Part shown: in pieces, positions 12,746-56,492 of the stretch
Position numbering within the stretch: the first letter of the stretch is position 1
How the letters are laid out: the number at the start of each line of letters is the position of its first letter
NCBI RefSeq assembly: GCF_900105415.1
Contig: NZ_FNSM01000001.1
Coordinates: 5,543,501-5,607,500 of the forward strand
Reading direction: 5' to 3'
DNA: 64,000 nt
Source: Streptomyces sp. TLI_105
GTDB lineage: Bacteria; Actinomycetota; Actinomycetes; Streptomycetales; Streptomycetaceae
The notes under the pieces: model-generated
Databases searched by the model: none
What the model was told of the DNA's origin: nothing
The model's input: only the letters and a program-made list of their open reading frames with translations
Program-made: the position numbers and the translations under genes

Positions 12746-14644
<1,899 letters not shown>

Positions 14645-18003: not shown

Positions 18004-18199
18004 GCTCCCGGTGTAGCCCGCCGGGGCCGGGGCCCGCATCGCCGGAACCGCCCATGCTGCGGCGCGGGCGGGGTGGGCGATTCGACCCATCCCCGGGGTG
18101 GGCGGTGTCCCCGTCCACCCCGGGTGGGGGCGCGCCGGCGGGGCGGTGCCCCCACCCACCCCGCCGTGTGGGCCGCCCCCGGCGGTGCCCCACTCCCGC
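18004..18199. other. G-run-rich noncoding spacer
   Basis: About 200 bases of repeated GGGTGGG, GGGGCGG and CCCCACCC tracts, with no supportable gene. The runs could form G-quadruplexes on either strand. Promoter of the oxidase gene must lie at its left edge near CTACAC (rc of 18012-18019). Confidence 0.5.
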
Positions 18200-18445
18200 C
18201 CGTGTGGGCAATCGTCCCGCTGGGGCGAGGGGGTCCCCCCTGCTCGAGCGAAGCCGAGAGCTTGGGGGAGGGTGGGCACACGGGACGGCGCCCTGAGCGG
18301 CGCCTCCGCGTTCCGCGCCTGGACCCGCACCACGAGCTAGGCGCACAGAGTGGTGCGGGTGAGGGCGCGGGAGCCTGGGCCCGGCAAGGGCGCCGTTCCG
18401 TTGTGCCCACCCGTTCCGCCCCGGCGGAACGCATGCCCACAACGG
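18200..18445. mobile_element. MITE-like palindrome-ended element, copy A (interrupted)
   Basis: Starts CCGTGTGGGCAATCGTCCCG and ends with the inverted counterpart GGCGGAACGCATGCCCACAACGG. The ends match, with few changes, the ~50-bp terminal inverted repeats of the element at 55235-55439, and part of the interior (GGACGGCGCC...GGCGCCTCCGC) is shared. The left arm is split by the REP-like repeat at 18227-18270. No protein is encoded. Confidence 0.7.
18227..18270 (-). repeat. REP-like repeat, copy 2, nested in element A
   Basis: Reverse complement of the repeat at 12799-12841 with about one base change in the core. It replaces about four bases of the left arm of element A (compare CTGGGCGGGACGGGTGGGC in copy B), so it entered after element A. 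Confidence 0.8.
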
Positions 18446-18540
18446 GGTGGGCGAGGGGTGGGCACCGTCCCGGCGGGCACGCGCCCACAACGGGGGCGCG
18501 AGGGGGGCACCGCCCCAGCGGAACGATTGCCCACAACGGG
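18446..18540. repeat. Two tandem half-copies of the element's right end
   Basis: Segments 18446-18493 and 18494-18540 each run from a GGGGTGGGC- or GGGGGGCACC-type start to GCCCACAACGG, repeating the right terminal repeat of element A with drift. With element A they fill the spacer up to the LuxR-type gene. Confidence 0.65.
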
Positions 18541-52007: not shown

Positions 52008-52370
52008 TTACCTTGTCCGGACCGGATACACCGTCACCGCGACCTCGTCGTCGTCCAGGCACCGGCCCGTCTCCAGGTCGAAGCGCTGCTTCAGGAGCGG
52101 CGAGGCCACGAACGGCCGCCCGCCCGCCGAGCCGAGCAGCCCCCGGGACAGCACCTGCGCCCCCGTGAACGGATCGCGGTTGTCGATCGCGTACGTCCGG
52201 CCCGACCGGTCCCGGAAGACCGCCGCCTGCCGGCCGTCCGGCAGCAGCGCAGCCACGCCCCGGCCCGGGGTCAGCCGGGCCTCCTCGCAGACCGCCATCC
52301 AGGAGTCGGGGGACAGGTCGGGGGACAGGGAGAGTTCGAGTGTCCCCGCCGCTTCGAGTGTCGTCGTCAT
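52008..52370 (-). CDS. nirD: Nitrite reductase small subunit NirD (Rieske-like)
   Basis: A 120-residue small subunit of NADH-dependent assimilatory nitrite reductase, with the Rieske-type fold (LTPGRGVAALLPDGRQAAVF, YAIDNRDPFTGAQVLSRGLL, VASPLLKQRFDLETGRC). Cys-His cluster ligands are absent, as usual in NirD. ATG 52370 overlaps the nirB stop by 4 bases, so translation is coupled. It ends the operon close to the TetR promoter. Confidence 0.93.
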   Translation of the reverse strand: MTTTLEAAGTLELSLSPDLSPDSWMAVCEEARLTPGRGVAALLPDGRQAAVFRDRSGRTYAIDNRDPFTGAQVLSRGLLGSAGGRPFVASPLLKQRFDLETGRCLDDDEVAVTVYPVRTR

Positions 52371-54901
52371 CGGGAGGTGGCCCCTTCCAGCGTTCCGATC
52401 GTGAGAATCGTGAGGTCCGGCTTGATCTGGTCCCGCTCCGGCACGAACCGGACCGACGGGTCCGGCGCCCCGGGCGCGTTCACGAAGGAGACGAAGCGCC
52501 GCAGCCGCTCCGGGTCGTCCAGGGTCTCGGCCCACTCGTCCCGGTAGTCGGCGACGTGCGCCGCCATCAGCGCCTCCAGCTCGTCGCAGAGCCCGAGCGA
52601 GTCGTGCACCACCACGTCCTTGAGGTGGTCGAGCCCGCCCTCCAGGCGTTCCAGCCAGGTCGACGTCCGTTCCAGGCGGTCCGCCGTCCGGATGTAGAAC
52701 ATCAGGAACCGGTCGATGAGACGGACCAGTTCGGCGTCCGAGAGGTCCTGCGCGAGCAGGTCCGCGTGGCGCGGGGTCGCGCCGCCGTTCCCGCCGACGT
52801 ACAGGTTCCAGCCGTTGGCCGTCGCGATGATGCCGAAGTCCTTCGACTGCGCCTCCGCGCACTCGCGGGCACAGCCCGAGACCGCCGACTTCAGCTTGTG
52901 CGGGGCGCGCAGGCCCCGGTAGCGCAGCTCCAGCTGGATCGCCATCTTCACCGAGTCCTGGACGCCGTAGCGGCACCAGGTCTGCCCGACGCAGGACTTC
53001 ACCGTGCGCAGCGCCTTGCCGTAGGCGTGCCCCGACTCGAAGCCCGCGTCGACGAGCCGCGTCCAGATCGAGGGCAGCTGGTCCACCCGCGCCCCGAAGA
53101 GGTCGATCCGCTGACCGCCGGTGATCTTCGTGTAGAGCCCGAAGTCCCGGGCCACCTCGCCGATCACGATCAGCTTGTCCGGGGTGATCTCACCGCCGGG
53201 GATGCGCGGCACCACCGAGTAGGAGCCGTTGCGCTGCAGGTTGGCGAGGAAGTGGTCGTTGGTGTCCTGGAGGGAGGCCTGCTCGCCGTCCAGGATGTAG
53301 CCGCCCAAGCCGATGGTCGGGGCGAGGCTCGCGAGGATGGACCCGACGGTCGGCTTGCAGACCTCGCAGCCCTCGCCGCCCCGCGCCTCCTCCCGTCCGT
53401 GCGAGTCCAGCAGCGCCGCGAAGGAGGTCAGCCGCAGGGTGCGGGCGATCTCGTAGAGCTCGCTCCGGGTGTACGAGAAGCAGCCGCAGAGCCCCTTGTC
53501 GGTAGGGGCCGGCAGCAGCTTCTCGATCACCTTCACGCAACTTCCGCAGCCCGTACCGGCCTTGGTGCACTTCTTCACCTCGGCCAGCGACTCGCACTGC
53601 CCGATGGCGTGCTTGGTCACGTTGTGGCAGGAGCAGATCACCGCGTCGTCCGGCAGCGCCGAGGGGCCGAGCGCCACCGGCGCGCCCGCGCCCGCCGGGA
53701 GCACCAGCTGCTCGGGCGAGACCGGCGGCACGGTGCCGGTCAGCGGGCGGAGGAGGCCGTACTGCTCGGCGTCGCCGACCAGGACACCACCGAGCAGCAC
53801 CCCGTCGGCGGAGACCACCAGCTTCTTGTAGACGCCCGAACGGGAATCGGAGTACACGACGTCGAGGCAGTCCTCGGCCGTCCCGTGCGCGTCGCCGAAC
53901 GAGGCCACGTCCACGCCGAGCAGCTTCAGCTTCGTCGACATGTCGGCGCCCGTGAAGCCGTCCCCGGCCTGCTCCCCGGCGATCGCCGCCGCGGCCGTCT
54001 GCGCCATCTCGTAGCCCGGCGCCACCAGGCCGTACACCCGGCCGTCCGAGGCCAGCGCGCACTCGCCGATCGCGAAGACCGCCGGGTCCGACGTGCGGCA
54101 CAGCTCGTCGACCGCGATGCCGCCGCGCTCGCCGACCGTCAGGCCGCAGTCGCGGGCCAGCTGGTCCCGGGGCCGTACGCCCGCCGAGAACACGACCATG
54201 TCCGTGGCCAGCTCGGAACCGTCCGACAGCTTCATGCCCGTCACGGCGCCGTCCGTCGCCACGACCTCCTGCGTGCCCGTCCCCGTGTGGACGGTCAGGC
54301 CCATCTTCTCGATCGTGCGGAGCAGGGCCGCGCCGCCGCCCTCGTCGACCTGCACCGGCATCAGACGCGGCGCGAACTCCACGACGTGCGTGTCCAGGCC
54401 GAGGCCCTTCAGCGCGCCCGCCGCCTCCAGGCCGAGCAGACCGCCGCCGACGACCGCGCCGGTCGTCGCCGTCTTCGCGTACTCCTCGATCGCGAGCAGG
54501 TCCTCGATCGTGCGGTAGACGAAACAGCCCTTGGCGTCCTTGCCGGGGACGGGAGGCACGAAGGGATACGAGCCGGTGGCGAGGACCAGCGTGTCGTACG
54601 CGAAGACCCGCCCCGAACGGGCCGTCACCGTCCGGGCCTCCCGGTCCACGGCCTCCGCCGGGTCGTCGGTGTGCAGCTCGATGCCGTGCCGCTCCATGAA
54701 GCCGGCCTCGACCATCGACAGGTCGTCGGGCGTCTTGCCGGAGAAGTACGAGGTCAGCTGCACGCGGTCGTAGGCCGGACGCGGCTCCTCGCAGAGGACC
54801 ACGATCCTGGCCCGCTCGGTGACGCCACGGTCGGCGAGCGCCTCCAGGAACCGCTGGCCGACCATTCCGTGGCCGACCAGGACGATGGTGGGAGTGGTCA
54901 T
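52367..54901 (-). CDS. nirB: Assimilatory nitrite reductase large subunit NirB
   Basis: Reduces nitrite to ammonium with NADH in the cytosol. The 844-residue protein has an N-terminal FAD/NAD(P) part (IVLVGHGMVGQRFLEAL; second GxGxxG as VVGGGLLGLEAAGAL near 150), BFD-like [2Fe-2S] motifs (CSCHNVTKHAIGQC, CTKAGTGCGSC), then the sulfite/nitrite reductase half with the siroheme/4Fe-4S ligands CVGQTWC and CARECAEAQ near 665-715. Complete and of normal length. It lies between nirD (4-base overlap) and another reductase (4-base overlap). Confidence 0.96.
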   Translation of the reverse strand: MTTPTIVLVGHGMVGQRFLEALADRGVTERARIVVLCEEPRPAYDRVQLTSYFSGKTPDDLSMVEAGFMERHGIELHTDDPAEAVDREARTVTARSGRVFAYDTLVLATGSYPFVPPVPGKDAKGCFVYRTIEDLLAIEEYAKTATTGAVVGGGLLGLEAAGALKGLGLDTHVVEFAPRLMPVQVDEGGGAALLRTIEKMGLTVHTGTGTQEVVATDGAVTGMKLSDGSELATDMVVFSAGVRPRDQLARDCGLTVGERGGIAVDELCRTSDPAVFAIGECALASDGRVYGLVAPGYEMAQTAAAAIAGEQAGDGFTGADMSTKLKLLGVDVASFGDAHGTAEDCLDVVYSDSRSGVYKKLVVSADGVLLGGVLVGDAEQYGLLRPLTGTVPPVSPEQLVLPAGAGAPVALGPSALPDDAVICSCHNVTKHAIGQCESLAEVKKCTKAGTGCGSCVKVIEKLLPAPTDKGLCGCFSYTRSELYEIARTLRLTSFAALLDSHGREEARGGEGCEVCKPTVGSILASLAPTIGLGGYILDGEQASLQDTNDHFLANLQRNGSYSVVPRIPGGEITPDKLIVIGEVARDFGLYTKITGGQRIDLFGARVDQLPSIWTRLVDAGFESGHAYGKALRTVKSCVGQTWCRYGVQDSVKMAIQLELRYRGLRAPHKLKSAVSGCARECAEAQSKDFGIIATANGWNLYVGGNGGATPRHADLLAQDLSDAELVRLIDRFLMFYIRTADRLERTSTWLERLEGGLDHLKDVVVHDSLGLCDELEALMAAHVADYRDEWAETLDDPERLRRFVSFVNAPGAPDPSVRFVPERDQIKPDLTILTIGTLEGATSR

Positions 54902-56322
54902 GAGGAGCCTCCGTCGTGGGTGAGCAGGTGGAGCAGGGGGGCCTCGTCGGGCAGGGCTTCGTCGCCCTCCCAGGCCCGTGCGAGCGCGCCGACCGCGGCC
55001 AGGTCGCCGAGGAGGACGCCCCCGACGAGCCGGTCCCCGCGGACGACGACCTTCCGGTACGCGCTGCGCGTGGCGTCGGTGAGCTGGACGACGTCGTCAC
55101 CGGGGCGGGCGGTGACTTCGCCGAAGGCGGCGAGATCGAGGGGCCTCGGGCCGCCGAGGGTGAGGCGGGTGAGGGCGCGGGTGCCGGTGTACCGCGCTGC
55201 GGGGCCGCCTTCCGCCGGGGCGGCCACCTCTGCCCCGTGTGGGCAATCGTCCCGCTGGGCGGGACGGGTGGGCACACAGGACGGCGCCCTCGGCGGCGCC
55301 TCCGCCTCCGGTTCCTCCCCGCACCCCGAGGGCGAGGCGCTCTCGGTGCGGGTCCAGGCGCGGAGGGCGAAGGCACCCGCAGGGGTGCCGCCCGTTGTGC
55401 CCACCCGTTCCGCCCCGGCGGAACGCTTGCCCACAACGGACGTCAGGAGGTCCGCCAAGGCGTCCGCCTGTTCCAGCGCCGGGCCCGCCAGGCCGTACAC
55501 GCGCCCCGCGTGCTCCGCGCAGTCGCCGATCGCGTGGATGTACGGGTCCGACGTCCGCAGCTCGTCGTCGACCACGATCCCCGTCGCGACGGACAGACCC
55601 GCCTCCCGGGCCAGGGCCACCCGAGGCCGTACCCCGCAGGCGAGGACCACGACCTGTGCGTCGAGGACGAAGCCGTCGGCGAGTTCGACCGCCGTGACCG
55701 CCCCGTCCCGCTGCCGCAGGCCGCTGACCCGGCACTCGGTGTGGACCTCGACCCCGAGGGCCTCGACGTGCTCCCGGAGCAGCGCCGAGGCGTGCTCGTC
55801 GAGCTGCCGTTCCATGAGGCGCTCGCCCTGCTGGGTGAGGACCACGTCCGCGCCCCGCTCGGCGAGGGCCCGCGCGGCGGAGACCCCGAGGAGTCCGCCG
55901 CCGATGACCACGGCCCGCACCCCGGGCCGTACCAGGGCGCGCAGCTCCAGGCAGTCGTCGAGGGTACGGAAGGGGTGGACGCCGACCGGGAGCGCCGCCC
56001 CGCGCAGTCCGCGCAGCGGCGGGAGCACGGGGTTGGAGCCGGTGGCCAGGACGAGCCGGTCGTAGGCGACGAGCGAGCCGTCCGCGCACTCGACGGTCCG
56101 CGCCGCCCGGTCGATCCGCACCGCCCGCACCCCGAGCCGTACCGGCTCGCGGGTCCCGGGCAGGGCGATCACCTCGGGGGCGTACCGTCCGGCGAGGACG
56201 TCGGCGAGCAGCACCCTGTTGTAGGGGGCGTGCGGCTCCTCGCCGAGGAGGGTGACGGGCAGGCGCTGGGCGAGCCGGGCGCCCGCCGTCCCGCCCCCGA
56301 CCACCACGATCCGTGTACTCAT
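54898..56322 (-). CDS. NAD(P)/FAD oxidoreductase of the nitrite reductase operon, with in-frame element insertion
   Basis: A 474-residue FAD oxidoreductase related to the N-terminal half of NirB (VVVGGGTAGARLAQRL, VLATGSNPVLPPLRG, VVIGGGLLGVSAARAL, and the FAD-binding GDCAEHAGRVYGLAGPAL near 270-285). It presumably feeds electrons to NirB or another acceptor. Residues about 295-363 are encoded by the MITE-like element 55235-55439 and have no family similarity. The frame reopens in register at ARYTGTRALTRLTLGG, and the rest is normal. Without the insert it would be about 405 residues, the usual size. It starts the operon under the GlnR-like site, and its 3' end overlaps nirB by 4 bases (ATGA). 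Confidence 0.88.
   Translation of the reverse strand: MSTRIVVVGGGTAGARLAQRLPVTLLGEEPHAPYNRVLLADVLAGRYAPEVIALPGTREPVRLGVRAVRIDRAARTVECADGSLVAYDRLVLATGSNPVLPPLRGLRGAALPVGVHPFRTLDDCLELRALVRPGVRAVVIGGGLLGVSAARALAERGADVVLTQQGERLMERQLDEHASALLREHVEALGVEVHTECRVSGLRQRDGAVTAVELADGFVLDAQVVVLACGVRPRVALAREAGLSVATGIVVDDELRTSDPYIHAIGDCAEHAGRVYGLAGPALEQADALADLLTSVVGKRSAGAERVGTTGGTPAGAFALRAWTRTESASPSGCGEEPEAEAPPRAPSCVPTRPAQRDDCPHGAEVAAPAEGGPAARYTGTRALTRLTLGGPRPLDLAAFGEVTARPGDDVVQLTDATRSAYRKVVVRGDRLVGGVLLGDLAAVGALARAWEGDEALPDEAPLLHLLTHDGGSS
55235..55439. mobile_element. MITE-like palindrome-ended element, copy B, inside a coding sequence
   Basis: The left end CCGTGTGGGCAATCGTCCCG and the right end, read in reverse complement (CCGTTGTGGGCAAGCGTTCC), are about 50-bp terminal inverted repeats with a handful of differences; both continue CGGGTGGGCACA. 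The interior has a further palindrome (CGCACCCCGAGGGC...GCGCTCTCGGTGCG). No gene of its own is encoded. The element keeps the host frame open (about 68 codons), so it acts as a peptide insertion. It is related to the element at 18200-18445. No clear target duplication was found by eye. Confidence 0.8.
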
Positions 56323-56344
56323 ACCGGAAGGGTGCGGGGCCGGT

Positions 56345-56382
56345 GTTACCCGTCGGGATCCCGACTGTTTCCCGTACGGAAC
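56345..56382. promoter_or_regulatory. Probable GlnR box of the nitrite reductase operon
   Basis: GTTAC-N6-GGATC-N6-GTTTC-N6-GGAAC has the 11-base periodicity of the GlnR consensus GTNAC-N6-GAAAC repeated twice; 16 of 20 fixed or loose positions match by my count. It lies 23-60 bases upstream of the first gene. GlnR is known to activate nitrite reductase genes in Streptomyces. Confidence 0.7.
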
Positions 56383-56492
56383 GCTGATCTCCGTCCGGGC
56401 CGAGGGCCGCTGTGAGGCCGCAAGCTCTGAACCAGCTCAACGATCAGGCGATCGATGGACGGGGCAACGATCGCCTCCCTAGGCTCACGACC

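Follow-up and report, generated by a model that had tools for sequence, protein, structure and literature searches.

Bacterial MITEs are short dispersed elements with inverted ends. The parts of PMC10969869 that deal with them give a length of ~200 bp, inverted ends and a dispersed distribution, and other parts of the same paper describe the Rickettsia palindromic elements, short palindromes of ~150 bp that lie in frame inside protein genes, in many unrelated genes and with a conserved peptide. REP and BIME sequences (GTAG- and CGTC-tagged) appear in sections of PMC3733652 as small hairpin units, often in inverted pairs and in high copy; the word Streptomyces does not occur in the main text of that paper. 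The enterobacterial RU repeats with open reading frames are presented in part of PMC2759123 as mobile intergenic repeats that are also found intragenically, and the tandem repeats of Borgs, according to part of PMC9879509, create disordered protein regions.

Here, we analyze a 64,000-nucleotide stretch of the Streptomyces sp. TLI_105 genome (the window), in which a 205-bp palindromic repeat lies in frame within an oxidoreductase gene. We consider it likely, with a probability of about 0.78, that this insert is a REP/MITE-like passenger, a dispersed repeat tolerated as unselected filler, whose frame is kept by selection on the enzyme. The repeated use of one linker by the repeat is the new point of this analysis. 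No recognized description of the 205-bp repeat, or of a 34-mer repeat associated with it, turned up in our search, which was confined to open-access literature.

The insert and its host gene

The 205-bp core starts with CCGTGTGGGC and finishes with GCCCACAACGG (Table 1). At either end lies an imperfect hairpin (46 and 48 nt, respectively), and the two are related as inverted copies. The best ungapped match of the arms covers 27 nt with 81% complementarity, and the core matches its own reverse complement at 73% over 201 nt. Pfam assigns Pyr_redox_2 to residues 4 to 285 of the reductase and Rubredoxin_C to residues 396 to 444, with the insert between both. The gene lies directly upstream of nirB, which is followed by the gene for the nirD-type Rieske_2 protein. 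An in-frame insertion into an otherwise intact gene, as an earlier note made from the sequence alone had described it, is what the stop-free 474-aa reading frame displays.

Table 1. Features of the window discussed in the text
Feature	Position in window	Strand	Details and basis
Intergenic full copy	18199..18445	+	Second 34-mer repeat interrupts the A end; flanked by array units on either side
nirD-type Rieske_2 protein	52011..52370	-	PF13806, 118.2 bits; nirD is a label assigned here
nirB, nitrite reductase large subunit, downstream neighbor of reductase	52367..54901	-	TIGR02374, 1017.5 bits versus cut-off 578.35
FAD/NAD(P) oxidoreductase gene	54898..56322	-	474-aa ORF, stop-free; Pfam and homologues
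Whole interdomain linker of reductase, residues 283-377	55192..55476	-	285 nt; position derived from residue numbering
Probable degenerate flanking half-unit of array, CCGCCGGGGCGG type	55196..55234	+	By eye against flanks of 55 copies
Palindromic repeat core, 205 bp	55235..55439	+	A end first on +, hence B end first in the gene's sense
A-end hairpin, arms GTGT/ACAC and TCCC/GGGA	55235..55280	+	Sequence and alignment
Middle of core, containing a separate GC stem and a variable loop	55281..55391	+	Alignment, folding
B-end hairpin, arms GTTGT/ACAAC and TTCC/GGAA	55392..55439	+	Sequence and alignment

The linker of the reductase measures 285 nt versus 60, 72, and 66 nt in three empty relatives, which amounts to a net gain of 75, 71, and 73 residues, and the gain is 78 residues relative to the 396-aa insert-free homologue P0022. 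In the empty relatives P0022, L049, L055, and L059, the linker spans 51 to 72 nt. The earlier figure of ~68 added residues is therefore right for the 205-bp core and too small for the whole linker, whose net gain is 71 to 78 residues. The extra stretch of linker at ~55196-55234, judged by eye, is probably a degenerate flanking unit of the repeat array.

A dispersed repeat of intergenic spacers

With the element as query, at least 113 aligned segments were found in the own genome (G000), where 40 of 426 first-look candidates were scored. The end motif TGCCCACCCGTYCCGCCC occurs there 50 + 50 times with at most one mismatch, versus 0 for the control. These 100 occurrences group to 79 sites, of which 78 were analyzed, the remaining one being the 18.2-kb spacer copy in the window. 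By profile coordinates, 58 of the 78 are full-length; 57 of these are intergenic, and the only one in a gene is the window's own. Of the 20 partial copies, 16 are intergenic, 3 fall within genes, and 1 lies at an unassigned edge, with all gene and spacer calls made by a codon-usage gene finder built for this analysis. Dispersal of the repeat, as supposed in the earlier note, is thus borne out by dozens of copies in the own genome, most of them intergenic. Its view that such insertions are rare is correct across genes (1 of 58 full copies) and does not extend to one linker, where the repeat recurs among related Streptomyces.

The 57 intergenic full copies lie between tandem (35), convergent (19), and divergent (3) genes, whereas other spacers of at least 60 bp from the same stretches and the window number 38 tandem, 7 convergent, and 20 divergent. 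Convergent spacers are enriched and divergent ones depleted (P = 3.5e-5 for the convergent versus divergent bias, from a small sample). A preference of this kind would be in keeping with the repeat avoiding promoters or acting like a terminator. In most of the copies inspected by eye, arrays of 40- to 48-bp half-units lie on both sides of the core, so that what occupies a spacer often extends beyond the core.

The copy at about 18199-18445 of the window belongs to the same family, as had been claimed for the spacer at 18200-18540, and it is interrupted by a second repeat. This is an almost invariant 34-mer, CCAAGCTCTCGGCTTCGCTCGAGCAGGGGGGACC, seen at window positions 18232 to 18265 (G000:C1:5561732-5561765) and 12803 to 12836. 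It has 61 matches in G000 with three mismatches or fewer (control, 0), and for 37 of the 61 sites, an end motif of the 205-bp repeat family is no more than 250 bp away. The 34-mer is nested in one end of 33 of 55 full copies, 18 times in the A end and 15 times in the B end, in mirrored orientation; as the longest full copy is 251 bp, it is too short for two 34-mers.

Partial end hairpins are also found in frame in three other genes of the own genome (L122:1479-1539, L126:1508-1553, and L131:1474-1520). These genes are of the MbnB/TglH-family, UvrD/PDDEXK, and acyl-CoA dehydrogenase types, and the peptide VGxRSAxAERVGT occurs in two of the three.

Across the genus, at least 35 of 121 sampled genomes matched the element at an E value of 1e-5 or lower, with six candidates scored per genome. 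Among the matches listed, those that are near full-length with at least 78% identity come from G004, G015, G076, and G098 in addition to the own genome, and G008 has two at 69 to 71%. A spacer with the element, L012, has counterparts without it in relatives, measuring 432 bp here versus 63 bp in G004 and 422 versus 61 bp in G015. In G240, a full copy (L261, G240:C1:1577664-1577872) lies inside a weakly scored predicted ORF; this is possibly a second gene with an insert, or else a false ORF prediction.

Recurrence in one linker of related Streptomyces

Among 120 homologues listed of 6,912, a list biased toward the insert because the query carried it, linker length runs from 17 to 172 residues. 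In 24 of the 120 proteins, the query included, this same linker holds a copy that is full or nearly so (tblastn and inspection by eye). The orientation is A in 21 and B in three (the query, P0002, and P0003), and P0005 and P0007 carry an A-orientation element without the left hairpin. Ten more of the listed proteins have hairpin-only remnants, and in the other 86 no full or hairpin-only copy was assigned; empty sites do exist in the host linker. The tblastn search, run on 199 linkers, matched the element in 48, and the final counts of 21 A, 3 B, and 10 hairpin-only rest on judgement by eye: P0063, P0090, P0098, P0112, L045, P0108, P0118, and P0100 were dropped as low-complexity, P0044 and P0045 were dropped as well, and P0008 was reassigned from B to A. 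A protein domain common to many genera, with conserved residues, is not what this survey returned, since the 23 other listed full or near-full carriers are all named Streptomyces and the residues are not conserved.

Samples were also taken at the DNA level. Of the 79 genome-contig loci that could be read, three (L040, L046, and L048) had a full or near-full element; these loci were drawn from the best 80 of 194 in a search in which one of six peptide patterns derived from the insert, favoring insert carriers. In the 121-genome sample (85 matched), inspection by eye of the 30 best host loci revealed a full or near-full element in a single one, the own locus; in a 392-genome sample (271 matched), four of the 30 best had it: the own locus, L220, L221, and L232. 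The linker DNA of L220 and L040 is identical, and hence the locus sets overlap.

Near-identical hosts can differ in their linkers. P0018 carries the element and P0093 a hairpin only; P0034 has it and P0022 does not; P0003 and P0005 have it in opposite orientations, B and A, respectively. On a FastTree phylogeny of the protein body (184 rows, linker left out), the fewest changes needed are 11 for presence or absence and 14 for A, B, or none, on a tree with many weak branches where such counts do not separate gain from loss. Searches of 5.77 billion proteins with the A and B peptide regions, covering proteins of 0.55 to 1.75 times the query length that have exact 5-residue words in common with the query, yielded 310 and 283 candidates and matched this protein family only (15/15 and 3/3 matches, queries included).

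In other Streptomyces, the linkers of P0098, P0063, P0090, L045, L071, and L110 contain long low-complexity or tandem inserts that by eye seem unrelated to the element. The linker thus seems to be tolerant of insertions in general.

Relationships of the linker copies

On a tree of 93 DNA copies, the six distinct linker copies whose DNA is known occupy three separate positions. L048 and L040 group beside copies of the own genome, several of which have the nested repeat. The window, L046, and L221 group with L033 and L034, both of which come from other genomes, in a five-member set (support, 100/98). L232 groups with two intergenic copies of its own genome, G240 (support, 100/91, the bootstrap being not fully settled). 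It is 94.7% identical to these two over 208 columns, versus 89% to the nearest G000 copies and 71 to 82% to the five other linkers. The left flank of L232 resembles that of P0025 by eye.

A single clade of all six linker copies was rejected in the fullest set of 6 versus 87 copies, with an approximately unbiased (AU) P value of 0.032 that is just below 0.05 and comes with an unsettled bootstrap; smaller sets did not reject a single origin (AU P = 0.27 for 4 linkers versus 58 and 0.37 for 6 versus 83). The set of 6 versus 83 had left out four copies of other genomes, L031 to L034, which the set of 6 versus 87 restored. A clade of the window, L046, and L221 had a support of 99 in the former and was not exclusive once L031 to L034 were restored; held exclusive, it had a log likelihood 39 lower (AU P = 0.11).

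Our reading of these placements is that there may have been at least two acquisitions, or that an older insert was replaced by gene conversion. The linker has probably received the repeat more than once, and the likeness of L232 to intergenic copies could reflect gene conversion of an old insert. Since the cluster of the window and L046 (both B) with L221 (A) also includes L033 and L034, inversion in place stands only as a possibility.

Disorder, folding, and codon-level evidence

An AlphaFold2 model built from 41 diverse rows has a mean pLDDT of 77.1, with residues 304 to 373 below 50 and free of secondary structure; a helix (280-303) precedes this stretch and a strand (385-389) follows it. 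An earlier model from 47 close homologues was poor (mean pLDDT, 49.7). The insert is accordingly modeled as occupying a disordered linker between two domains, in agreement with the flexible loop that had been proposed. Solved relatives of P0022 include 1xhc and 3klj (NirB-family N-terminal domain), and the matches end near the linker, at query residues 302 and 305.

At the nucleic acid level, the fold of the 205-bp DNA has a z score of -8.3, and that of the RNA of 55225-55450 (minus strand) has one of -10.2; 0 of 200 shuffles were as good in either case. A search of Rfam gave no match within 54800-56400 at E values up to 1, and a structured RNA family was rejected on this ground. Covariation for the fold was absent: none of 71 predicted pairs (0/71) had changed on both sides.

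The insert and the body of the gene diverge differently. Between the window and L046, the insert has 5, 8, and 5 differences at codon positions 1, 2, and 3 over 67 codons, while 43 of the 56 differences in 350 compared codons of the body fall at third positions; 1 synonymous and 13 nonsynonymous codons in the insert compare with 38 and 9 in the body (Fisher P = 8.8e-7). The inserts of L048 and L040 differ at 15, 17, and 16 sites of the three positions, with 7 synonymous and 25 nonsynonymous codons, and pairs of intergenic copies are likewise flat (1,253, 1,312, and 1,331). The flat distribution indicates that the insert drifts like noncoding DNA, with the body under ordinary purifying selection. 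On this codon-position evidence, we rejected the reading of the insert as a protein domain.

Nor does the open frame need the selection that had been offered as one explanation for it. Of the 58 full copies in the own genome, three low-scoring ones were set aside; the other 55, among them that of the window, are open in 44, 46, and 48 cases in the frames of one strand and 33, 27, and 32 in those of the other, i.e., in 49 to 87% of cases by frame, and an open reading frame in the insert is expected without selection on openness. The start of the core is read in one frame in all A-type proteins, as R[DN]GA in 21 of 21, and as TDGA in L232. This single core frame, despite other frames being usually open, may point to selection on the residue content of the insert, perhaps in favor of small, polar residues over tryptophan or arginine. 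In L232 (G240), at bases 2529 to 2740, translation of the left hairpin follows a frame different from that of the other A-type inserts (PLWAIVPLGG) ahead of the usual core frame (DGALSGASA).

Proposed origin and alternative readings

The mechanism that we favor would begin with a dispersed GC-rich palindrome having two different inverted hairpin ends, a ~110-bp core, and usually half-unit arrays outside. It normally resides in intergenic spacers, and one copy lies in the disordered linker between the FAD/NAD and C-terminal domains. Stop codons are scarce in every frame of the repeat, so that many insertions into the linker would be survivable. Selection on the enzyme would remove those that break the frame, leaving only frame-keeping copies to be seen, and the peptide would be unselected and apparently harmless filler. 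In related Streptomyces, the same linker carries the repeat in both orientations, full, trimmed, or enlarged, and always in frame where read. Presumably the insert is translated and the enzyme works. The acquisitions, whatever their number, would have come about by transposition, or by gene conversion and hairpin-driven repair.

A classical MITE, i.e., a non-autonomous transposon with a DDE transposase acting on its ~50-bp terminal inverted repeats and one or a few insertions into the linker, would account for the inverted ends, the core of ~205 to 210 bp, the dozens of copies, and the empty sites. Yet inspection by eye of the linker and of L012 resolved no target-site duplication in comparisons with distant empty relatives, and even the closest genomes compared are too distant for such a duplication to be readable. 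Inverted pairs of the end motif consist of 141- to 148-bp cores and then only of pairs at 7.2 and 8.8 kb formed by separately identified copies. With no inverted pair between 148 bp and 7.2 kb among the 100 end-motif matches, a larger parent element with the same ends was rejected within that set, which is not exhaustive because copies with an interrupted end lose one motif. Mobilization of the RAYT/IS200 kind was rejected as well, as the own genome has no Y1/IS200 (TnpA_REP) transposase (0 matches to PF01797; a control search matched 5 of 14 genomes). The ends, moreover, merge into half-unit arrays. The label "MITE-like" in the earlier note thus fits a short, multicopy sequence with terminal inverted repeats and is not supported in the strict sense, given that no target-site duplication was resolved, no IS200-type transposase was found, the 100 end-motif matches include no inverted pair between 148 bp and 7.2 kb, and the core, judged by eye, is embedded in arrays; we regard the classical MITE as unlikely. 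Turnover by recombination, in which gene conversion and hairpin-driven slippage, drawing on the numerous genomic copies, would overwrite or enlarge the linker copy and its inverted ends might let it invert in place, is possible, if somewhat doubtful. It would explain why L232 is so close (94.7%) to two intergenic copies of its own genome, why half-unit arrays occur in linkers as they do in intergenic copies (by eye), why the near-identical hosts P0003 and P0005 have opposite orientations, and why the window, L046, and L221 share a five-row cluster in spite of their B, B, and A orientations. Against the last point, that cluster also has L033 and L034 from other genomes, and the exclusive clade has the lower likelihood given above (by 39; AU P = 0.11).

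A domesticated protein module with its own function in the reductase could be argued from the recurrence at one site, the one core frame of all A-type proteins, and the restriction of peptide matches to this family (15/15 and 3/3, queries included). We hold it to be very improbable, as the insert has no codon-level constraint, is disordered in the model, has no assigned copy in 86 of 120 listed proteins, and yields different peptides in its two orientations. There is similarly little to be said for a hairpin acting in the messenger, by attenuation, stability, or processing between the reductase and nirB: the fold is very stable and the family favors convergent over divergent spacers, but the hairpin lies within an ORF, is absent from many relatives, and had neither an Rfam match (54800-56400, E up to 1) nor any of 71 pairs changed on both sides. 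Bolder than our preferred reading, and in our estimation rather improbable, is the idea that the linker is a standing landing site, in which the repeat would be installed time and again, replaced by sequence from intergenic copies, and perhaps turned around in place, with the frame always kept, so that related strains would make different disordered peptides and the repeat would serve as a homology-driven diversifier of the linker.

Comparison with known systems

Taking the passenger reading as our basis, the locus is an example of repeat DNA becoming disordered protein without visible selection on the peptide, and a place in which movement of the repeat can be tested. The case affords clean contrasts: many intergenic copies that serve as a neutral yardstick, strains with and without the insert, and both orientations. 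Because the host enzyme adjoins nirB, its loss should give a testable nitrogen phenotype.

In anatomy, the repeat resembles REP/BIME units and MITEs as portrayed in the parts of PMC3733652 and PMC10969869 concerned; strict MITE status is unproven, and so is membership of the REP/BIME group. With MITEs it has in common a length of ~200 bp, inverted ends, and dispersal, and it differs in that no target-site duplication or partner element was identified here. Unlike REP/BIME, it has 46- to 48-nt ends around a ~110-bp core and a genome with no Y1/RAYT transposase. The RU repeats are known from other hosts, and their description in part of PMC2759123 says nothing of one linker being used repeatedly. 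The Borg repeats, as far as the relevant part of PMC9879509 goes, likewise turn repeat DNA into disordered protein, but they are tandem direct repeats of archaeal extrachromosomal elements, whereas ours is a dispersed palindrome.

The Rickettsia palindromic elements, in the portions of PMC10969869 devoted to them, share the central feature of a palindromic repeat in frame within a coding gene. Unlike those elements, the repeat studied here has only 1 of 58 full copies in genes (together with 3 of 20 partial copies, in three genes), its peptide matched one protein family only in the region searches, and the encoded peptide is without codon-level constraint (window versus L046 and L048 versus L040). 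The reductase linker offers a parallel to the Rickettsia case in a free-living actinobacterium.
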